64,000 nt of DNA from positions 1,364,001-1,428,000 of the forward strand of contig NZ_PGFI01000011.1 in assembly GCF_002797755.1 (NCBI RefSeq). The letters are read 5' to 3'. The position numbers and the translations under genes are program-made. The stretch's first letter is position 1; the number at the start of each line of letters is the position of its first letter. Positions 36,496 through 52,783 of the stretch are shown piece after piece. Under the pieces are notes generated by a model that did no database searches, was not told the origin of the DNA, and saw nothing but the letters and a program-made list of their open reading frames with translations. The DNA comes from Brevirhabdus pacifica. GTDB taxonomy: Bacteria; Pseudomonadota; Alphaproteobacteria; Rhodobacterales; Rhodobacteraceae.

Positions 36496-37530
36496 TCATG
36501 TTCTCCGCTCCTGCGCGGCCTTCGACAGGCGCCGCCGGCTGGCTTTTACCCGATAATAGGCGACGATGGGCGCGCTCTGTCCGGTCACGGCCTGGATCTC
36601 CGCGTCACTCGCCCCGGCCTCGGCCAGTTCGATGATCGCCAGCTTGCGCAGACCGTGCAGCGAGTATGGCAGGGCCTTGTCGCCCAGCGACTTTCGCCAC
36701 GCCCGGAACGCCCGCTCTACGGCGTCATAGCCCACAGGCTGCGTCAGGTTCCGGGGGATGAAGTGCGCCCCGCGCGGCGTCAGGCCGGTGGCGAAGCTGC
36801 GCAGCGGGGCAGGGCAGTAGACTTCCAGCTCCTGCCCGCCCTTCTCGTCAACGACCGTCATCCAGTCGCCGTCGATCTGGTCCCGGCGCATCGTGATGGC
36901 TGCGGTCGGGCGCTGGCCGGTGTAGCGGATCAGGTTCGCGGCGACCCGCACCGATTCCGGCGCGGTGCCCAGCTTGGCGATCATCCACGCGGGCCACGGC
37001 TTGTAGGGGTTCGCGGCCCTATGGGCACCCAGACCGGCGGCGGGGTTCGGCCCCATCGGCCAGTCCAGTTCCCGAGCGGCGAAGTTCCACAGCAGCGAGA
37101 TTGTCTGAGCATATCGGCTTGCCTTGCGGGGCATGTCCGACCACTTTGCCAGCGCGGCCTTGACCGCCTGCCGGGTGGTGCGCCGCATGTCCTTGTCGCC
37201 GTTCTTCTCCATGATCACGTCCATGACGCGCCGATATTGCTTGCGCGTGGAGAGGGCCAGCTTGGCCGACTGCGGATCGACCCGCCACGCCTCGATGCAG
37301 GCCCGCCAGGAATACCGCTCTCGGGTCTTCTGCGCCTCGTGCTTGCCGCCCTGAGCCAGCCAGTAGAGCCGGTCCAGCTCCTTCGGGTCGCCCTTCCAGT
37401 CGAGGGTGATCTCCTTGGATCGCTGCTTGCCGGCCTCAGTCCACGTCACGCGATGTCGGGGCACCCATTTTCCACGGGTCCAGCGCCAGACAAGGCGGGG
37501 CTTGGTGATCCGGGGCTTGGGCGGGTTCAC
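36496..37530 (-). CDS. int: tyrosine recombinase (phage integrase)
   Basis: 344 residues read from GTG 37530, which overlaps the stop of the excisionase-like gene (GTGA). An N-terminal arm- and core-binding region is followed by the catalytic domain with Arg207 (YTGQRPTAA), His292-x-x-Arg295 (LHGLRK), and the nucleophile Tyr325 or Tyr326 (GQSAPIVAYYRV). It is oriented toward the attL junction 100 bases away and should recombine attP with the tRNA-Leu site. Confidence 0.93.
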   Translation of the reverse strand: MNPPKPRITKPRLVWRWTRGKWVPRHRVTWTEAGKQRSKEITLDWKGDPKELDRLYWLAQGGKHEAQKTRERYSWRACIEAWRVDPQSAKLALSTRKQYRRVMDVIMEKNGDKDMRRTTRQAVKAALAKWSDMPRKASRYAQTISLLWNFAARELDWPMGPNPAAGLGAHRAANPYKPWPAWMIAKLGTAPESVRVAANLIRYTGQRPTAAITMRRDQIDGDWMTVVDEKGGQELEVYCPAPLRSFATGLTPRGAHFIPRNLTQPVGYDAVERAFRAWRKSLGDKALPYSLHGLRKLAIIELAEAGASDAEIQAVTGQSAPIVAYYRVKASRRRLSKAAQERRT

Positions 37531-49670: not shown

Positions 49671-50015
49671 ATGACGTGCAAGTGCATAAGCTACAACCAG
49701 CCGCAGCCGTGGCAGACAGTTGGTAGCCGGATACTGACGTGTCCGGAGTGGGCAAGTGAGCATGAGAACGCCCGCGCTACCATCTGCGTTGACGAGTGCA
49801 TCGCGGATACCGTGCTGGCGCTATGGTCCGAGCGCATTTGGACCTACGGGGCCTGCTGTGGGCATGGCGATCCGGGAAATCGGTCAATCATCATCGACCG
49901 CCACGACCGGGAAGCTGCCCGCAAGGTCCTCGACCGGATTGATCCCGCAACCCACCTCGGCGCGTGGGAACTGGTCTTCGACGCACCCGGAATTTCACAT
50001 CAGGAGGCCAAGTAG
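49671..50015 (+). CDS. phage cysteine-rich hypothetical protein, 114 aa
   Basis: Contains CKC near the start, then TC..., VDEC and ACCGHGDPGNRSIIIDRHDR, which could form a metal site. The C-terminal half is alpha/beta (AARKVLDRID). No family recognised. It begins right after the shared junction AGGAGGCCAAGTAGATG and ends in QEAK, again encoding the next ribosome site. Confidence 0.55.
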   Translation: MTCKCISYNQPQPWQTVGSRILTCPEWASEHENARATICVDECIADTVLALWSERIWTYGACCGHGDPGNRSIIIDRHDREAARKVLDRIDPATHLGAWELVFDAPGISHQEAK

Positions 50016-50255
50016 ATGCCCGATGTGTCCCTGCACGGTAACGGCGAGGACTGCCCAGCTTGCGCTCTGCGCCGCGAAGGTCTGCGCGAGGTGAAAGCAA
50101 TGAAACAGGCGGTTTCATGCAACTTCTGCGGCGGCACCGGTCGCGTAGGGCGAGCAGTGCGCGAGATCATCCGGGAGGCTGTCGAGTGGGCAGCCGAGAA
50201 TTACTGGCCCGAGCGCGAGGCGCGGTGGCAGCAACCCAACAAGGAGGCCAAGTAG
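50016..50255 (+). CDS. phage zinc-finger-like protein, 79 aa
   Basis: Two CxxC pairs, DCPAC (residue ~13) and CNFCGGTGR (~35-43), suggest a small zinc ribbon of the DnaJ-like CxxCxGxG type; the C-terminal half is a helix (EIIREAVEWAAENYWPEREA). It lies in the junction-sharing gene series and ends in KEAK. Function unknown. Confidence 0.55.
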   Translation: MPDVSLHGNGEDCPACALRREGLREVKAMKQAVSCNFCGGTGRVGRAVREIIREAVEWAAENYWPEREARWQQPNKEAK

Positions 50256-50504
50256 ATGGCAGATCAAACCTACCGCGTCACAGCGGACGAACTGCGCCAG
50301 TTTATCGAGCGCTACGAGCGGCTGGAACAGGAAAAGAAGGACCTGGCCGACCAGCAAAAAGAGGTCATGGCAGAGGCCAAAGGGCGCGGCTACGACACCG
50401 CCGTCATGCGCAAGGTGATCGCCCTGCGCAAGCGCGACAAGGACGACATCGCCGAGGAAGAGGCGGTGCTGGACCTCTACAAGCAAGCGCTGGGGATGGA
50501 CTGA
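50256..50504 (+). CDS. GapR family (DUF2312) DNA-binding protein
   Basis: 82 residues matching the family over its full length: DELRQFIERYERLEQEKKDL, then AEAKGRGYDTAVMRKVIALR and EEEAVLDLYKQALGMD. In Caulobacter GapR is a nucleoid-associated protein that wraps overtwisted DNA ahead of forks and stimulates topoisomerases. A phage copy may support phage replication or remodel host chromosome topology; that role is inference. Confidence 0.85.
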   Translation: MADQTYRVTADELRQFIERYERLEQEKKDLADQQKEVMAEAKGRGYDTAVMRKVIALRKRDKDDIAEEEAVLDLYKQALGMD

Positions 50505-50677
50505 TGGGAGCGACTGAAGGGGAAATCACATTCCGAGAGTTCGAGGTGAAGCTGCGGGCCGCCGTAGAACATTGGCTTCTGAACTGGGTCGAGAACAACA
50601 GAGACATGCCAGACGAATATCCCATGTCGATGGGCGAGGGCGACTGGTGGGAACAATTCGTGGCGGAGAACTTCTGA
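50504..50677 (+). CDS. phage hypothetical protein, 57 aa
   Basis: Acidic small protein rich in Trp and Glu (EHWLLNWVENNRDMPDEYPM, DWWEQFVAENF). Start and stop overlap the neighbouring genes by three and one bases. The acidic aromatic composition is seen in DNA-mimic or inhibitor proteins, but no family is recognised. Confidence 0.6.
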   Translation: MGATEGEITFREFEVKLRAAVEHWLLNWVENNRDMPDEYPMSMGEGDWWEQFVAENF

Positions 50678-50823
50678 TGGCCGGATCACTGAATCGCGTA
50701 ATGCTGATCGGAAACCTCGGAGCCGATCCTGAAATTCGGACATTCCAGAACGGGGGCAAGGTCTGCAACCTGCGCATTGCCACCTCCGAGAACTGGAAGG
50801 GGGCCGATTATGCCCTCTCCTGA
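50677..50823 (+). pseudogene. 5' remnant of ssb interrupted by homing endonuclease
   Basis: 48 codons encoding the N-terminus of a single-stranded DNA-binding protein ([35 protein letters not shown]), then seven unrelated residues and a stop. Over the 35 residues from Asn to Trp it shares 27 identities with the full SSB at 51300, though their DNA differs at most wobble positions. The break coincides with the start of the HNH gene at 50810. Its high GC matches the surrounding phage genes, so it is the original exon. Confidence 0.85.
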
Positions 50824-51298
50824 AGCCCCTTACCTCCGGTTTCTTAAGGGCTTTGTCGTCAGCCCCGACACTGGATGTTGGCTGTGGGAAGGATCAACAT
50901 ATCAAAACGGATATGGGTGGTTGAAGGTTTTCGGCAGCGTAGTTTCCGCGCATCGATTCTCGTATGAGCTTCATAAGGGGACGATTCCCGATGGCTTGGA
51001 AATTTTACACTCTTGCGATGTGAAGCATTGTGTCAACCCAGACCACCTGAGGGCGGGAAGCCACGCGGAAAACATGGCAGAGGCGGCGGAGCGCGGGCGA
51101 ATGCGCAGCGGCGCTGACCACCCCCAATTTGGAAAACTGCAACAACGTCCTAAGCAGGCTAAGCCCGTCCGGGTCTTAGGGAAAGACTACGAGAGCATAA
51201 AGGCGGCTGAGAGGGCTTTAGGTCTGGGGGGCGGGACCGTCCGTTACTGGCTAAACCATAACCCCTATCGCGCGCAATTAATCGAAAAAGGAAGATGA
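50810..51298 (+). CDS. HNH-NUMOD1 homing endonuclease
   Basis: 162 residues. Contains a GCWLWEG-type start, the HNH core ([34 protein letters not shown]) and a C-terminal NUMOD1-like DNA-binding helix pair ([20 protein letters not shown]). ATG 50810 has AAGGGGG upstream and lies inside the tail of the ssb stump. GC content is clearly lower than in flanking phage genes (e.g. 50990-51060). It presumably cut an endonuclease-free ssb allele and moved into it. Confidence 0.88.
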
Positions 51299-51299
51299 G

Positions 51300-51755
51300 A
51301 TGTCGTCGGTAAATAAAGTCATTTTGGTAGGGAACCTGGGCCGAGATCCTGAGGTAAGGACCTTTCAAAGCGGGGGTAAGGTCTGCAACTTAAGACTTGC
51401 CACAAGTGAAAAATGGACCACGAAAGACGGCGAACGCAAGGAGCGGACCGAGTGGCATTCCGTTGCGATCTTCTCCGAACCCCTGGCTCGCATCGCCGAG
51501 CAATACCTGCGGAAGGGTTCCAAGGTCTATCTCGAGGGTCAGCTTGAAACCCGCAAATGGCAGGACCAGTCCGGTCAGGACCGCTATTCGACCGAGGTTG
51601 TCCTGCGCCCCTACAAGGGTGAGCTGACGCTGCTGGACAGCCGTGGCGGTGAAGGCGGCGGCGGTGGCGGCTACATGGCCGACCAGTCGGGGGGTGACGC
51701 TCCGGCGGGGGGATACGGCGGCGGGGATCTTGATGACTCGGAGATCCCGTTCTGA
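51300..51755 (+). CDS. ssb: single-stranded DNA-binding protein SSB
   Basis: 151 residues: OB fold [20 protein letters not shown] through [13 protein letters not shown], Gly-rich linker, and the acidic tip DDSEIPF that recruits replication proteins. Bases 51300 to about 51415 are AT-richer and use AAA, TTA, GTA and AGA codons; from about 51420 the usage is GC-rich like other phage genes. The gene is therefore a hybrid with an imported 5' exon and the original 3' exon. AAGGA before ATG 51300 lies in the end of the endonuclease gene. Confidence 0.93.
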
Positions 51756-52051
51756 TGCACGTCACCAGCCACTTCCGAGAGCGCGTGGCGCAGCGAGTTG
51801 GGGGCGCACTTGACCCTGAAGAACTGGCTGCGGCGCTCGACTGGGCCATCAGCGAAAACAGATCGGACCTGGTCGAGTATGTCGGGCGCCGCAACAGGCG
51901 GGGCGTTCGGGTGTTCCGGTTCCGGGCGGCGCCGGACGGTCGGATGTTCTTGGCCGTGATCGACACGCAAGCGGGTGCGGCAATCACCCTATACGAAGAT
52001 CAGGGGGCAGGAACATGGGGCAACGAGACCGGGAGGTTCGCGGCAGAATGA
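51755..52051 (+). CDS. phage hypothetical protein, 98 aa
   Basis: Alpha/beta protein: [20 protein letters not shown] (helix), VEYVGRRNRRGVRVFRFRAA and RMFLAVIDTQAGAAITLYED (strands). The layout faintly recalls small RelE/HigB-like or DUF4258 folds, but key residues are not clear. Start overlaps the ssb stop by one base; stop overlaps the next ATG. Confidence 0.55.
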   Translation: MHVTSHFRERVAQRVGGALDPEELAAALDWAISENRSDLVEYVGRRNRRGVRVFRFRAAPDGRMFLAVIDTQAGAAITLYEDQGAGTWGNETGRFAAE

Positions 52052-52263
52052 CCACCGCCCGCCTCACCGAGCAAGTCGAGACACAGGCCGCAAGCCTCAA
52101 GGCGGCATGGCTGGATCTATCCCGCCTTCGGAGCCGCTGCGAGACCCTACAGGGCATGGTGGACTGGCAGCGGGCGCGGATCACAGAACTTGAGGCACAA
52201 CTGACAGACAGCGCCATCGCAGAGCGCATATTCGGGGGCAGACATGGGCAAGATCAAGGCTAA
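52048..52263 (+). CDS. phage coiled-coil protein, 71 aa
   Basis: Almost entirely helical with heptads (LTEQVETQAASLKAAWLDLS, MVDWQRARITELEAQLTDSA). ATG 52048 overlaps the previous stop (ATGA). No family recognised; overlaps the next gene by 20 bases. Confidence 0.55.
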   Translation: MTTARLTEQVETQAASLKAAWLDLSRLRSRCETLQGMVDWQRARITELEAQLTDSAIAERIFGGRHGQDQG

Positions 52264-52783
52264 GAAGCGGGCACCGTACACCCCGCCGACCACGTGGGAC
52301 GCAGGGCCGGACACCGCAGCACAGCGGGCCGGTCGGATCATCGAGGACGTTACCGAGACCGATCCGGAGACAGGCAAGCGGGTCAACCCCAACGGCATCA
52401 AGAGGGCACGCCGTATCGACCTTATTGAGCACTACCGGATCATTGGCGTAATTACCCAGGCCGAGTTCACCGCGCTCATGGCCCTGCGCATGGCCTACGA
52501 GAAAACGCAGCGTGGCCCTCCGGCCATTCAGGAACTCCAGGTAGACACCAGCTCGAAGCCTGATCACGCGGTCGCGATCCTCATGGATCGGCTCAGCAGA
52601 TACTCCCAGATGATGGCCCACGTTCGCCCCGAGCATCGGCGGGTTATCACCTGTGTCGTGCTGGATAATCAGACGGTGATGCGGATAGGGTTCAAGGGGC
52701 GGCGCTATCAGGCGGGCATGGACCTGTTCAAGGCCGCGGCCGTCGCATTCGAGGCCTCAGTCAATCGGCACAGCGCCCCTTGA
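52244..52783 (+). CDS. phage protein at late-regulator position, 179 aa
   Basis: Basic N-terminus (MGKIKAKKRAPYTPP), then PNGIKRARRIDLIEHYRIIG, VITQAEFTALMALRMAYEKT and a C-terminal RRVITCVVLDNQTVMRIGFK with helices. It is the last early gene, directly before a terminator and the terminase genes, where Q, RinA or ArpU-type late activators sit. No motif confirms that; the role is an inference from position. Confidence 0.55.
   Translation: MGKIKAKKRAPYTPPTTWDAGPDTAAQRAGRIIEDVTETDPETGKRVNPNGIKRARRIDLIEHYRIIGVITQAEFTALMALRMAYEKTQRGPPAIQELQVDTSSKPDHAVAILMDRLSRYSQMMAHVRPEHRRVITCVVLDNQTVMRIGFKGRRYQAGMDLFKAAAVAFEASVNRHSAP

Follow-up and report, generated by a model that had tools for sequence, protein, structure and literature searches.

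The question raised by this locus is how a complete ssb gene has come to lie behind a truncated copy of its own 5' end, with a gene for an HNH endonuclease between the two. Such an arrangement had been proposed in the original prediction for the window (the whole stretch of 64,000 nucleotides that was analysed), and ORF and Pfam analysis recovered the ssb stump, the HNH_3 nuclease and the full ssb where it had placed them, tightly packed and all on the plus strand (Table 1). The stump matches positions 1–38 of the Pfam SSB profile (E 1.7e-11) and the complete gene matches Pfam SSB with E 6.4e-37; the HNH gene starts inside the stump and its stop codon lies one base ahead of the ssb start. Upstream of the stump are a GapR-like gene and a 57-codon ORF, the stop of which overlaps the stump start codon. 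An IMG/VR viral contig (2728369741_000001, 41,334 bp) is identical to the window across the 6,486 bases compared, and the locus is therefore read as part of a prophage; from the contig coordinates, the left end of this contig would map near window position 36,500. The contig is probably the same genome as the window and hence no independent case. The likeness between the stump and the new N-terminus of ssb that had been claimed is present, but a recount gave 28 of 40 residues in common (71% of 41 by tblastn) instead of 27 of 35.

Table 1. Features of the ssb locus, with positions given in the window
Feature	Position	Strand	Remarks
ssb stump	50677..50823	+	48 codons, ~41 of them ssb; Pfam SSB
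Inserted block	50801..51427	+	627 bp; edges set by the loss and return of identity to the host ssb; holds, in order, ~9 bp, the HNH gene, a single base and the foreign ssb 5' exon
HNH_3 endonuclease gene	50810..51298	+	162 aa; Pfam; relatives at ssb in other phages
Foreign replacement 5' exon of ssb	51300..51427	+	~codons 1–43; GC3 0.53; 84/129 to host ssb
Complete chimeric ssb	51300..51755	+	151 aa; host-like from 51428 to ~51690

The strongest indication of what has happened here comes from a second ssb in the same genome. This gene is chromosomal (G000:C1:1362454-1362882, locus L021) and lies ~1.1 kb outside the left end of the window, separated from the prophage ssb by some 52 kb. When the stump is compared with it, 35 of the first 58 bases are identical, followed by 66 out of 66 (bases 59–124) up to position 50800, and the likeness then breaks off abruptly from base 125. 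The complete prophage ssb shows the complementary pattern, with poor identity over its first 129 bases (Table 1) and 259/267 thereafter, exact identity beginning at 51428 and extending for 60 bases. Together these host-like pieces form a single tract, with no overlap and with 10 host bases lost between them. One host-like ssb has therefore been split by a block of 627 bp (50801–51427), which carries the nuclease gene and a foreign 5' exon. The right piece has 98% identity to its own chromosome (over 260 bases) and at most 88% to other genomes (8 passing E ≤ 1e-75, of 394 in the family), and the stump has 95% identity to its own chromosome over 77 bases and at most 88% to others among the matches listed. 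As judged from its 3% divergence from the present host gene, the split would be fairly recent. Since neither the first 58 bases of the stump nor the far 3' end of ssb is host-like, the resident ssb is to be seen as a phage–host mosaic. The empty site that had been predicted, in which ~50800 would be joined to ~51428, is preserved by the host chromosomal ssb, where 10 bp separate these positions, and 75 phage ssb genes with no HNH gene directly upstream are likewise uninterrupted there. The host chromosomal ssb thus retains the presumed target site intact despite the presence of the nuclease in its prophage; the nuclease may lack activity, be silent in the lysogen or have a narrower specificity.

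Base composition also varies along the locus. GC3 falls from 0.71 in the stump to 0.58 in the HNH gene and 0.53 in codons 1–43 of the complete ssb and is back at 0.75 in the remaining codons of that gene, which bears out the claim that the endonuclease and the new 5' part of ssb are AT-richer. That the composition switches inside ssb also holds, but the switch, which had been put at 51415–51425, lies a few bases further on, at 51428, when defined by identity to the host ssb. The drop in GC3 of codons 1–43 relative to codons 44–110 was equalled by one of 77 other viral ssb genes; these controls, from which L191 and the short L184 were excluded, were picked for their likeness to the stump, and as they include L189, which has an HNH gene directly upstream, the set is not wholly HNH-free. 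Among eight other HNH-linked ssb genes, a comparable drop was present in L105 only (2/77 of the controls being as low) and absent from L010, L011, L012, L014, L025, L191 and L222. Instead of the recoded, uncleavable target that had been suggested, the replacement exon may simply be the ssb allele of an AT-richer phage. No close donor was found in the phage records searched, which yielded three weak matches.

Uninterrupted relatives bear both on the origin of the exon and on the possibility of a duplication. When 80 viral loci were selected by similarity to the stump, 76 had a single intact ssb ORF (139–182 aa) at the match, and the remainder consisted of two loci that run off their contigs, one short ORF (110 aa) and the window's own locus. 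Relatives with two full-length ssb genes, which had been named as the mark of a plain duplication, did not occur among these 80. A fairer set was formed by 79 viral ssb loci chosen by the 3' part of the gene only, with the own locus excluded; the two sets overlap and contain duplicates. All 79 have an N-terminus of the expected length in direct continuity with the 3' part. Of the two 5' ends, that of the stump is the closer one in 61 loci, or in 60 of the 75 that have no HNH gene directly upstream, the four loci that do have one being L277, L288, L289 and L291. As the stump is not closer in the remaining loci, the set chosen by the 3' part favours replacement of the 5' exon and yet is not clean. 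A nuclease-free relative carrying the 51300-type N-terminus had been named as evidence against such a replacement, and none was encountered: in the 75 phage ssb genes with no HNH gene directly upstream, identity to this exon is 88/123 (72%) at best, and the top values of all, 89–90/123, belong to the HNH-linked L288, L289 and L291.

The protein encoded between the two ssb ORFs matches Pfam HNH_3 with E 2e-12, in agreement with its original assignment as an HNH endonuclease. His67, Asn76 and His79 are among the invariant columns in an alignment of five relatives and, on this basis, would be the catalytic positions. NUMOD1 gave no Pfam match in the nuclease at E ≤ 1; the structural model of the protein, which has a mean pLDDT of 54 and is confident solely in its C-terminal part (blocks with pLDDT 80–90), makes a NUMOD1-like module plausible in that part. 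Likeness to a solved homing endonuclease was weak (1u3e, E 0.2), the structure in question being annotated as an HNH homing endonuclease, which we take to be I-HmuI. Among bacterial genomes, matches were obtained in three of 394 genomes of the family and in two of 385 of the class, the own genome included in each case, and a pattern scan of genome contigs based on the HNH alignment produced 98 hits, none of which was a relative.

In viral sequences, a search with the HNH alignment yielded at least 80 loci. The close clade (at least 56% identity) contains, among the matches listed, eight loci including that of the window, which represent seven distinct ones; L028 and L029 stem from the contigs of L012 and L013, with which they share 6,486 identical bases. 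In six of the seven, the nuclease gene lies directly 5' of ssb, and in the seventh (L031) it lies behind an ssb stump. At the other 72 of the 80 HNH loci listed, tblastn detected no ssb within 500 bp, some of the flanks ending at contig ends, and outside the close clade L032 and L078 have ssb within 1 kb of the HNH gene. Stumps precede the nuclease in three of the seven clade loci, namely the window (~41 ssb codons), L012 (27 codons) and L031 (~22 codons, the nuclease match here being spread over two frames), and are absent from L010, L011, L014 and L025. The notion that the stump of L012 ends at the same ssb position as that of the window was abandoned, as its alignment stops at base 80.

The association with the 5' end of ssb extends to other HNH types. 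In L191, which represents a second type, the nuclease begins with MAGSLNKV, the same eight residues with which the downstream complete ssb starts, four of the eight codons differing between nuclease and ssb. In L105, a further type, the nuclease start (MSSVNKA) resembles the ssb start (MSGSVNKV) and the nuclease gene overlaps the complete ssb that follows, so that in these two types the nuclease N-terminus carries 6–8 ssb start residues. L222 (58% identity to the L191 nuclease) and L288 (L105-like) lie ahead of ssb and have no stump. Given that the nuclease of the window starts inside the stump, and that those of L191 and L105 apparently use the ssb start codon, nuclease expression would ride on the ssb translation signals. 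At the ten loci measured, the distance from nuclease stop to ssb start ranges from a 20 bp overlap to a 3 bp gap, and the 25 bases ahead of the nuclease start appear unrelated by eye. The right end is variable, a whole ssb without a break following in L010, L012 and L025 and a different ORF in L031. Therefore, whereas the proposal of a mobile unit made up of endonuclease and ssb 5' exon stands, the unit lacks a fixed right end; moreover, the arrangement, which had been called uncommon, recurs at ssb with three HNH types.

Several of these loci have features of their own. The ORF that stands in place of ssb in L031, after the stump and the HNH gene (L031:2666-2994), has 109 codons and ends in EDSDIPF; its relatives occur at 24 other viral loci, mostly as unnamed or uncharacterized viral models, and it falls into no Pfam family and matches no PDB fold at E ≤ 0.001. 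Its acidic IPF tail is the one SSB-like feature, and it is possibly an unrecognized phage ssDNA-binding protein. On the contig of L277, a GapR-like gene is cut after ~20 codons and continues in frame into an HNH_3 nuclease (L189:843-1496), a fusion that has a weak AP2 match and lies directly 5' of ssb; in this case the neighbour gene of ssb is struck in the same way. L011 has a second HNH gene of the same kind (L011:5033-5287; 53% identity over 85 residues) ~1.1 kb 3' of ssb. PHROG 25370 (48 positions, function unknown) matches only ssb residues 4–50 (51300–51446 in the window) and may have been assembled from ssb stumps.

In our view, the locus is probably the product of an invasion of the prophage ssb by a free-standing HNH homing endonuclease gene and a diverged ssb 5' exon, joined end to end. 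The earlier reading, in which a nuclease together with an ssb 5' exon invades ssb and restores the gene, is supported by the comparison with the host ssb and by recurrence. Our working model is that the enzyme would cut an uninterrupted ssb near codon 41–45, whereupon the right broken end would pair with the donor ssb and copying would proceed leftwards through the donor 5' exon and then the nuclease gene, while the left end, which lacks homology, would be attached to the 5' end of the nuclease gene by illegitimate joining. The outcome would be a stump, the nuclease and a chimeric complete ssb, and the new ssb is predicted to be shielded from cutting by sequence divergence around the cut. Stump length varies (41, 27 and ~22 codons, and 6–8 in two other HNH types) and the nuclease end is constant, which fits homology at the right end alone; one-sided, microhomology-joined repair has been described for T4 homing in the part of a published account available to us (PMC2988022). 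Counting against homing are the uncut chromosomal ssb of the lysogen, the failure to find a close exon donor, the lack of a GC3 break in most other HNH-linked ssb genes, the four of seven clade loci that have no stump, the weakness of the 1u3e match and the poor HNH protein model. A wider reading, which we offer tentatively and regard as somewhat doubtful, is that phage ssb is a recurrent target of at least three HNH types that are joined to the ssb 5' end and move, through one-sided repair of a break, with a replacement N-terminal exon, the left join falling anywhere in ssb and the right recombination anywhere in or beyond it. The left join would then at times hand the nuclease the start codon of ssb itself, recombination at the right end may even swap ssb for a different ORF (as in L031), and the host-like flanks may be a patch copied from a bacterial ssb in repair of an earlier cut.

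The sequence alone is also compatible with a purely passive history, in which a phage HNH–ssb pair was joined illegitimately with the resident ssb by mosaic recombination and the nuclease was a passenger, not the cutter. The stump-less loci L010, L011, L014, L025, L222 and L288 are readable as ordinary gene neighbourhoods, and the uncut host ssb fits such a history, but an interrupted ssb accompanied by a nuclease is seen with three HNH types, and among the matches listed the members of the close HNH clade occur solely at ssb; we therefore consider passive recombination unlikely.

The two ssb 5' ends in tandem might also call to mind a tandem duplication of ssb with subsequent HNH insertion and decay of the first copy. 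In that event the host-like tract should not be divided without overlap and with the loss of 10 bp, nor should the second 5' end be foreign, and two complete adjacent ssb genes were absent from every relative among the loci examined, which makes a duplication very improbable. We give practically no credence to a nuclease residing in an intron or intein, with the stump spliced to ssb, even though HNH nucleases of this kind are found in introns too and the weak structure match is to 1u3e. The nuclease is not in a group I intron, as Rfam returned no intron family and the ORFs are separate; the Rfam search of 49800–52300 gave a single irrelevant sub-threshold match at E ≤ 5. Splicing would moreover duplicate the N-terminus, because the downstream ssb is already complete, and the nuclease frame and stops exclude an in-frame intein between the parts. 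An assembly artefact was set aside, the same arrangement being present in contigs of other studies.

Mobile ORFs that bring a foreign exon are known from fungal mitochondria, where a C-terminal exon accompanies them in atp6, atp9, cox2 and nad3 of Glomus and in atp6 of Allomyces macrogynus (PMC3630166, available part). As far as that part describes them, these ORFs share with the ssb locus an endonuclease ORF linked to a piece of the target gene that is foreign, has diverged synonymously and restores the reading frame, and likewise leave behind a native piece that is nearer to close relatives than the inserted one (PMC3630166). However, they replace the 3' (C-terminal) exon of mitochondrial genes and mostly encode LAGLIDADG enzymes, whereas in the prophage ssb the 5' exon is concerned and the enzyme is of the HNH type (PMC3630166). 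By this comparison, the ssb element would work like the fungal exon-replacing ORFs and not be a member of them, the replaced part being the 5' exon. On the available parts of both sources, the fungal ORFs are the closest in mechanism and SegG of phage T4 the closest in choice of gene. SegG resembles the ssb element in being free-standing, in its intronless homing and in acting in the region of an ssDNA-binding protein, its target being gene 32, and differs from it in being a GIY-YIG enzyme located between genes 32 and 59 (PMC2988022); neither a stump nor a replacement exon is described for SegG in the part of that account at hand (PMC2988022). According to the same part, mobE in nrdA of Aeromonas phage Aeh1 and mobA in gene 60 of T4 are also free-standing endonuclease genes inside important phage genes, but there the gene stays split, whereas in the prophage a complete ssb is restored by the foreign 5' exon (PMC2988022). 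An HNH gene with a replacement 5' exon of ssb was unreported in the titles and abstract openings of the literature searched, which lay mostly outside subscription journals. We regard the ssb element, on this analysis, as a 5'-exon phage variant of the kind known from fungal mitochondria.

As the host ssb preserves the empty site, it is directly testable where the enzyme cuts and whether the divergence of the exon is protective. The locus would provide a base-resolved case of a homing endonuclease that enters a conserved phage gene with neither intron nor intein and repairs the damage with an exon of its own, and would point to a route by which in-frame chimeric ssb genes and stray ssb N-terminal ORFs arise in phage genomes.
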